A stretch of 64,000 bases of DNA from Candidatus Peribacteria bacterium (lineage in GTDB: Bacteria; Patescibacteriota; Gracilibacteria; UBA1369; 2-02-FULL-48-14). The notes beneath the pieces were generated by a model that saw only the letters and a list, made by a program, of their open reading frames with translations, ran no database searches and was not told the origin of the DNA. The position numbers and the translations under genes are program-made. Positions within the stretch are counted from its first letter, which is position 1. Each line of letters opens with the position of its first letter. Of the stretch, positions 1 to 1,313 are shown piece by piece. The stretch spans positions 1 to 64,000 of the forward strand of contig CALRGE010000003.1 in NCBI GenBank assembly GCA_943357175.1, written 5' to 3'.

Positions 1-275
1 TCCTTCTGCCATGTTTTTTCACTTTTACTGAACCGCAGACACAAGCCTTTTTTTAGACATAGATTCGTACATAAAAAGATAAACTCTATTTAACAGCTTA
101 CATAAGCCAAAACTAAACATAAATAGCAACCAGTTTTTCCCTATATCCCTGAAAAAACAACAGGAAAGCAGGTGCAGATTTTTCTTTACGTGTATAGTTT
201 TGTAAGATTCTCTTATCGTTACATAGTCGCGTTAACCAGAGAAGAAATTTTTAGTTTTAGAATTCTTATCAGGTT

Positions 276-300
276 CTTATCGTGACACAGTCACGATAAG
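276..300. repeat. Perfect inverted repeat CTTATCGTGAC-ACA-GTCACGATAAG (11-bp arms, 3-nt loop); degenerate direct copy at 212..235
   Basis: Read directly; the second arm is the exact reverse complement of the first. Confidence 0.85.
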
Positions 301-386: not shown

Positions 387-1202
387 ATGTCAGAAATAGA
401 AAGTAAAGTACCAGTGTCGGAAGTGAACATAATCAGCCCCGAGCAGATTCCAACTTTGATTCGTAGTAATCAGGATCTTGTAAATATTTGGGTGAATGAA
501 ACTGTGAGAAAATCTTCTCCATACGTTTTAATAAGAAAAGTGCTCATGAAGAAATTGGCACAGGGAATACCTGCAATAACAGATTTTGATGCGCTGAATG
601 TAATGATGGATTTTTTCTACAGCGGTAATTCTGATCACGAAAGTTTTTTGGGGATTGCAAAAGCTTCAAAACTTGTAGAAACCTGCAGACCCTCATACAA
701 ATTTATGTATAATAATTGGGAAGCTGGAGATAAAGAAAAAGCATCGTGGGAATTTGTGCAGGAAAGGCTTTTAAGAAAAGACAACCTAGCGAAAGCAATT
801 AGTCTACCAAAAAGTCTTCTGTTTGGTTTAGATGAAACTGGAAATCCACTTGTGGCAAATGGAGGTGTAGAGCCAATTATGAAGAGAATGAATTATTCAG
901 ACTCTAGAAATGCTGTTATAAAAAAAGGTTGGGAATTATTCCCATATAAAGAGCCTTACGAAAAATCTTCTGAAATAATTAAATATGAGAAATTTACCGG
1001 CGAACCTTTAGTTGGATCTTACGGTAGAAATATATATAGATCGTCATGGCTGGAGAGTGGAGCCGATCCTGGAATTTTCGCTCGCGTTTCGAACTTCAAT
1101 CCGTACTATCAGCGTTCCTACGTGGACTATGCCTATGCGTACTTTGGGTCCCTTGAGTACGGCTATCGTGGCGTTCGGGGCCTGCTAAGGGCGAAAGCTT
1201 AG
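387..1202 (+). CDS. Hypothetical protein with C-type-lectin-like C-terminus; candidate DGR target protein
   Basis: Complete ORF; C-terminus SSWLESG...ARVSNFNPYYQRSYVDYAYAYFGSLEYGYRGVRGLLRAKA; GC content jumps in the last ~120 nt. Confidence 0.7.
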   Translation: MSEIESKVPVSEVNIISPEQIPTLIRSNQDLVNIWVNETVRKSSPYVLIRKVLMKKLAQGIPAITDFDALNVMMDFFYSGNSDHESFLGIAKASKLVETCRPSYKFMYNNWEAGDKEKASWEFVQERLLRKDNLAKAISLPKSLLFGLDETGNPLVANGGVEPIMKRMNYSDSRNAVIKKGWELFPYKEPYEKSSEIIKYEKFTGEPLVGSYGRNIYRSSWLESGADPGIFARVSNFNPYYQRSYVDYAYAYFGSLEYGYRGVRGLLRAKA

Positions 1203-1313
1203 TATTTAAGCTTTAAATTTTCTTAAACTTTAACTTTTAATTTAAAATTTCCAGAAACGCTTGATCGAATTAAGATTCCTCACTAGAATACCCACACATT
1301 AAGCCAAAAAAAC

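Follow-up and report, generated by a model that had tools for sequence, protein, structure and literature searches.

The window analysed here is a stretch of 64 kb, corresponding to bases 1-64000 of contig C3, in an assembly of 20 contigs and 1.23 Mb that is rated 100% complete. Close to its start, an open reading frame on the plus strand (387..1202) encodes a protein of 271 amino acids, which, as developed below, is very probably the remote target of a diversity-generating retroelement (DGR), acted on in trans. The protein matched no Pfam or NCBIfam family, and a search of its profile against the PDB gave no match. Weak matches to DUF4256, seen in 3 of 15 members, were rejected, the probability against the DUF4256 protein of the same genome being 0.1%. 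An AlphaFold model computed from an alignment of five sequences had a mean pLDDT of 42, a confidence too low to reveal the C-type-lectin fold typical of DGR targets. The role of the protein is probably binding.

Four paralogues are encoded in the same genome, on contigs C5, C10, C8 and C2, with identities to the window protein of 53%, 45%, 49% and 48%, respectively, over the aligned parts. Among these five genes, a variable repeat (VR) close to the template sequence described below was found in the window and C8 copies only. The C-termini encoded by the other three are degenerate or unrelated; the C5 paralogue shows 25 non-adenine mismatches to the template, having drifted and lost its adenine-only character. 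Targets homologous to the window protein also adjoin the DGR in two related genomes (L133 and L146), and the template of L070, which is the same place as L133, is highly similar to that on C8.

Upstream of the gene (213..299, plus strand) there are two 23-bp palindromes resembling TTATCGTGACNNNGTCACGATAA, separated by 64 bp, which also precede the C5 and C10 paralogues. Copies of this element were located at C5:52091-52177, C10:33283-33369, C2:1477-1563, C8:45600 and C17:4437, in both orientations, and it precedes three DGR-target paralogues as well as a gene on C8 that resembles FUR (PF01475, E 8.6e-5). A function as co-regulatory operators was considered and set aside, since the C2 and C17 copies adjoin unrelated genes and both orientations occur, which now favours a dispersed intergenic element over an operator. 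A mobile or REP-like nature is possible, and so is a regulatory function.

A variable repeat with a template on another contig

In the initial annotation, the 3' end of this gene had been read as a candidate DGR variable region, with its template and reverse transcriptase (RT) placed left of base 1 or elsewhere on the chromosome, neither having been seen in the window. Both were found on contig C8, the window being the very beginning of contig C3. When positions 1000-1203 were compared by BLASTN with the whole genome, a VR at 1079..1191 (plus strand) matched with 81% identity, over 113 nt, a template repeat (TR) on the minus strand of C8 (C8:31850-31962). A second VR, with a BLASTN identity of 77%, forms the 3'-terminal part of another target gene beside the TR (C8:32237-32364). 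Directly upstream of this C8 target there is also a RelB/YafQ toxin-antitoxin pair, together with a Fic-family gene (L010:9032-10554).

The search for a template differing at adenines, suggested beforehand as the way to check the proposal, gave a clear result. Of 21 differences between the window VR and the TR over 109 aligned nt, 37 of which are adenines in the TR, 20 fall at template adenines, and for the C8 VR the figure is 23 of 23. The probability of such a concentration arising by chance is around 8e-11 for the window VR and 3e-14 for the C8 VR. Between the TR and either VR there is at most one non-adenine change in the 109 nt. Furthermore, a pattern of 83 nt taken from the TR, with its adenines written as N, was searched in the 1.23-Mb genome allowing 3 mismatches, and it matched the TR, the window VR and the C8 VR and no other place, each with 0 mismatches; the reversed pattern, used as a control, gave 0 matches in the genome.

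At the codon level, 17 of the 36 codons of the window VR differ from the template and 16 amino acids are altered. Changes are dense in a recoded stretch at 1104..1166 (plus strand), where the codon table shows 16 of 21 codons differing from the template, 13 of them aligned to AAY. These 13 codons (TAC, TAT, CGT, TAC, GAC, TAT, TAT, TAC, TTT, TCC, CTT, TAC and TAT) stand opposite AAC or AAT in the template, in line with the earlier suggestion that the clustered Tyr, Ser, Arg and Asn codons came from AAY template codons. The four other changes are GAC to GCC, GAG to GGG, GAC to GGC and the synonymous GGT to GGC.

The alignment continues into a near-invariant, GC-rich 3' end of the VR (1167..1191, plus strand), with two differences from the template, one T to C and the other A to G, and this segment is a candidate for the initiation of mutagenic homing (IMH) by its likeness to that of Bordetella phage BPP-1 (PMC3240598). 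The GC content of 1081-1200 was computed as 54.2%, in agreement with the approximately 54% counted by hand in the initial annotation, against 36.5% for the remaining part of the gene and 33.1% for the window, and 0.016% of the 120-nt segments in the 64 kb (around 1 in 6000) are as rich in GC.

Immediately 3' of the VR lies an AT-rich, 8-bp inverted repeat, AAAGCTTA-GTATT-TAAGCTTT (1194..1214, plus strand), a possible AT-rich counterpart of the hairpin of DGR targets. It is unlike the GC-rich stem with a GCAA loop found downstream of the C8 VR. Stems of at least 7 bp were detected downstream of the VR in 7 of 24 loci, versus 1.2 expected from shuffles. GC-rich stems of 7-9 bp with short loops stand 3' of the VRs of L114, L116, L124, L142, L144 and L145, and of the C8 VR, and they resemble the target hairpin of BPP-1.

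The genome has one RT gene, detected as a single RVT_1 match (PF00078, E 1.4e-14) on C8, which starts around 0.3 kb downstream of the TR on the same strand. Between them, on the opposite strand, there is a gene for a 114-aa protein of the bAvd family (PF22296, E 7.5e-11, above the cut-off), so that the search for a DGR-type RT and Avd proposed in the initial annotation found both beside the template. Because the sole RT and the Avd are on C8, the window gene is very probably a target in trans. A PDB profile search with the RTs of relatives gave as best match 8ub7 (E 6e-52), which we take to be the Bordetella DGR RT.

The disposition of these genes was compared in 35 RT loci (L113-L147) from named genomes of Peregrinibacteria, Peribacteria, Moranbacteria, Berkelbacteria, Saccharibacteria and others. 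In 33 of them the Avd homologue is on the minus strand with the RT on the plus strand, an arrangement that is stable across this DGR group. As a consequence, a transcript running from TR to RT would be antisense through avd. No description of an opposite-strand Avd was found in the literature searched, two surveys of DGR diversity (Wu et al. 2018; Paul et al. 2017) lying outside it.

A stop codon in the RT gene and repeats in the RT genes of relatives

In this genome the RT gene, when read through, gives a full-length protein with a single TAG at residue 159, the remainder being intact. The in-frame stop implies that the enzyme is off as assembled. Recoding of TAG was judged unlikely, since the target genes in the window and on C8 themselves terminate at TAG. 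Around it lies a perfect 12-bp inverted repeat, AGTGCTATCGTC-GTA-GACGATAGCACT (C8:31037-31061), with a loop that the TAG overlaps. The repeat has no other copy in the genome, and its stem length was reached by 1 of 300 shuffles of the RT gene. Alignment to relatives shows no net insertion at the hairpin: its 3' arm encodes the conserved T-I-x-L, and its 5' arm replaces residues conserved in relatives, as would be expected from a template switch in which the 3' arm served as the source of the 5' arm. By sequence, an inversion of the 3-nt loop would leave no stop. The hairpin could be either a related kind of switch, working by loop inversion, or a recent nonsense mutation, and, this being the sequence of a single assembly, the TAG could also reflect an assembly error or a dead gene.

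No simple sequence repeat was found in the RT of this genome, and the genome contains no (AC)8 or (AG)8 tracts. The situation in related genomes is different, as several of their RTs are split into two frames at (CA)n tracts. Thirteen distinct (AC)8 tracts were found in 148 related genomes, 11 belonging to DGR RT genes and the remaining 2 to type IV pilin-like genes. A search for (AG)8 in 380 Patescibacteria placed 15 of the 29 inspected tracts at DGR RT genes (8 inside and 7 at the 5' end). Others lie in genes which, from a reading of their translations, were named as those of pilins, a glycosyltransferase and a restriction specificity subunit. Long dinucleotide repeats in or near such surface or restriction genes were seen in L092, L093, L168 and L176 (pilin-like), L164 (glycosyltransferase-like) and L160 (specificity-subunit-like); pilin, glycosyltransferase and restriction specificity genes are the usual company of contingency loci.

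Within the 35 RT loci, 18 carry a dinucleotide repeat of 7-21 units (AC, CA, GA, AG, TC or CT), and a few more have a shorter repeat or a homopolymer. The repeats lie at three places of the RT gene: internally before the strand of motif A, internally before the G(M/I)PIGN motif, and at the 5' end. By frame, 16 loci are out of frame at the repeat, 3 are in frame with a repeat (L115 with AC13, L116 with AC11 and L124 with GA7), 10 are intact without a repeat and 6 are incomplete. Where the frame is broken the break falls at the repeat, and both halves of the RT are open and keep the conserved motifs. By contrast, dinucleotide repeats of at least 7 units were found in 0 of 72 DGR RTs from IMG/VR contigs (Fisher p 4e-11).

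Frame offsets of 0, +1 and +2 were counted 3, 8 and 8 times, a distribution that fits unbiased slippage (chi-square p 0.27). In-frame genes (3 of the 19 complete repeat-bearing RTs) are below the expected third, a shortfall that decay of the RT might also produce. The RT genes of L115, L130 and L138, which are 85-88% identical, carry 13 (in frame), 10 and 14 units, and at such identity these closest relatives with differing repeat lengths are different species; the length differences are thus between species, with one assembly for each. The in-frame L115 RT was modelled by AlphaFold with a pLDDT of 80.6, and in the model the residues encoded by the repeat (131-148) form a disordered loop that leads from a helix to the motif A strand, so an in-frame repeat is predicted to be tolerated there. 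In 24 of the 35 loci, 12 of the 16 out-of-frame ones among them, a local TR/VR pair shows no more than one non-adenine mismatch over 60 nt.

DGRs in general work through an RNA copy of the template: its reverse transcription introduces errors opposite adenines, and the resulting cDNA takes the place of the VR. We propose, with a probability of about 0.7, that the DGR RT of Patescibacteria is a contingency gene, in which dinucleotide slippage at any of three places (the 5' end, the loop before motif A and the loop before GxPIGN), or possibly hairpin-loop inversion in the present genome, switches targeted hypermutation on and off, useful variants being kept while the mutator is off, and that this second-order switch, random in itself and acting on a targeted mutator, has arisen several times. 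With the RT on, the adenines of the template RNA would be miscopied, and the C-terminus of the C8 target would be rewritten by the cDNA in cis and that of the window target in trans, reaching in the latter about 20 adenine-containing codons. This part is the usual DGR mechanism, and the sequences found here support it. With the RT off, the current variant of each target would be retained. The pattern of repeats and frames in relatives points to a phase-variable RT through which slippage switches targeted hypermutation. As an inference, such a switch is well supported in the relatives; in this genome it is possible. Judged from sequence, on/off slippage would account for the repeats and the adenine-only VRs together better than decay or a fixed frameshift.

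Other explanations and what a switchable RT would mean

The reading that competes most closely, to which we give somewhat less than even odds, accepts the VR as real and takes the DGR as dead in this lineage, a template-switch hairpin and its stop having made the RT a pseudogene and left the window VR as a fossil. The in-frame TAG interrupts the sole RT gene of a genome rated as complete, the arms of the hairpin look as if one had been copied over conserved residues from the other, and the C5 paralogue, with its non-adenine mismatches, is already past adenine-only change. Apart from that one interruption, however, the RT is intact, as are the Avd gene and the template, and the scarcity of non-adenine changes between the TR and the two VRs means that any loss of the DGR would be recent. 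In addition, breaks at RT loops are common in relatives that nevertheless have adenine-only VRs.

The proposed switch in relatives could be replaced by read-through of the out-of-frame repeats, by programmed frameshifting or transcriptional slippage, the RT being then always made at a low, regulated level. This is in line with the freshly diversified look of VRs beside out-of-frame RTs and with both RT halves remaining open and conserved, but the shift that would be needed is +1 in 8 loci and +2 in 8 loci, in such a way that no single frameshift signal would serve, and the repeat unit and its position vary among loci. Programmed frameshifting is thus judged unlikely, and we consider read-through as a whole improbable.

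Assembly or sequencing artefacts in the RT genes are a much weaker candidate still. All the genomes are metagenome assemblies, some contigs end in the repeat or at that spot (L142 and G074:C33), and the RT of G029 is broken across two contig ends. Real length variation would also produce contig ends at repeats, though, and artefacts would not concentrate in RT and surface genes, nor do they sit well with the same gene positions recurring, with different units, across independent studies and lineages. Finally, that the C-terminal codon pattern arose by ordinary paralogue evolution (gene conversion or convergent codon usage) with no DGR, as membership in a family of five paralogues might suggest, can practically be dismissed in view of the restriction of mismatches to adenines at the chance levels given above and of a template that adjoins RT and Avd.

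For the question of how a cell restrains a machinery that recodes the cell's own binding proteins, an unsettled one for DGRs, a repeat prone to slippage in the RT gene would offer a simple solution. A switchable RT would also give a reason for the lower apparent activity of Patescibacterial DGRs in metagenomes. In terms of annotation, RTs called split or frameshifted in these genomes may belong to live DGRs. Remote targets like the window gene, for their part, escape neighbourhood-based searches and should be sought with adenine-tolerant template patterns run over whole genomes.

Comparison with known systems

The system resembles that of Bordetella phage BPP-1 (mtd/avd/TR/brt; PMC3240598) in having an RT, an Avd homologue and a TR/VR pair with adenine-only mismatches, and also in the 3'-terminal position of the VR in the target gene, the GC-rich end of the VR and a candidate hairpin 3' of the cognate VR. 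It differs in that the Avd gene is opposite to the strand of TR and RT, the DGR is cellular and lies on no recognised phage, a second target is on another contig, and the RT frame is interrupted.

With DGR clade 2 (Roux et al. 2021, PMC8144416), which is restricted to Patescibacteria, it shares the Patescibacterial host, the cellular location, the C-terminal VR and the unannotated targets, a likeness drawn from these features. DGR activity in clades 2 and 3 was reported to be significantly below average (PMC8144416), and RTs that are mostly off would explain this for clade 2. The main text of that work makes no mention of frameshifts, pseudogenes, microsatellites or Avd (PMC8144416). Phase-variable control of a DGR RT was likewise not mentioned in the literature searched.

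The dispersed arrangement has parallels as well. In multi-target DGRs with remote VRs, such as that of Treponema denticola, one template serves several dispersed target genes, and here too a single template serves dispersed targets, although just two VRs match it closely.

The contingency loci of Neisseria and Haemophilus are phase-variable by simple sequence repeats in their coding sequences. The RT repeats of the relatives similarly lie inside coding sequence with frames near random, and some pilin-like and glycosyltransferase-like genes of related genomes contain repeats of this kind too. Unlike in those loci, the gene that would be switched is a mutator and not a surface protein, and slippage is deduced here from sequence. 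The remote VR alone would make the window gene a further case of a known kind; the new part lies in the repeats in the RT genes of relatives and in the stop within the hairpin.
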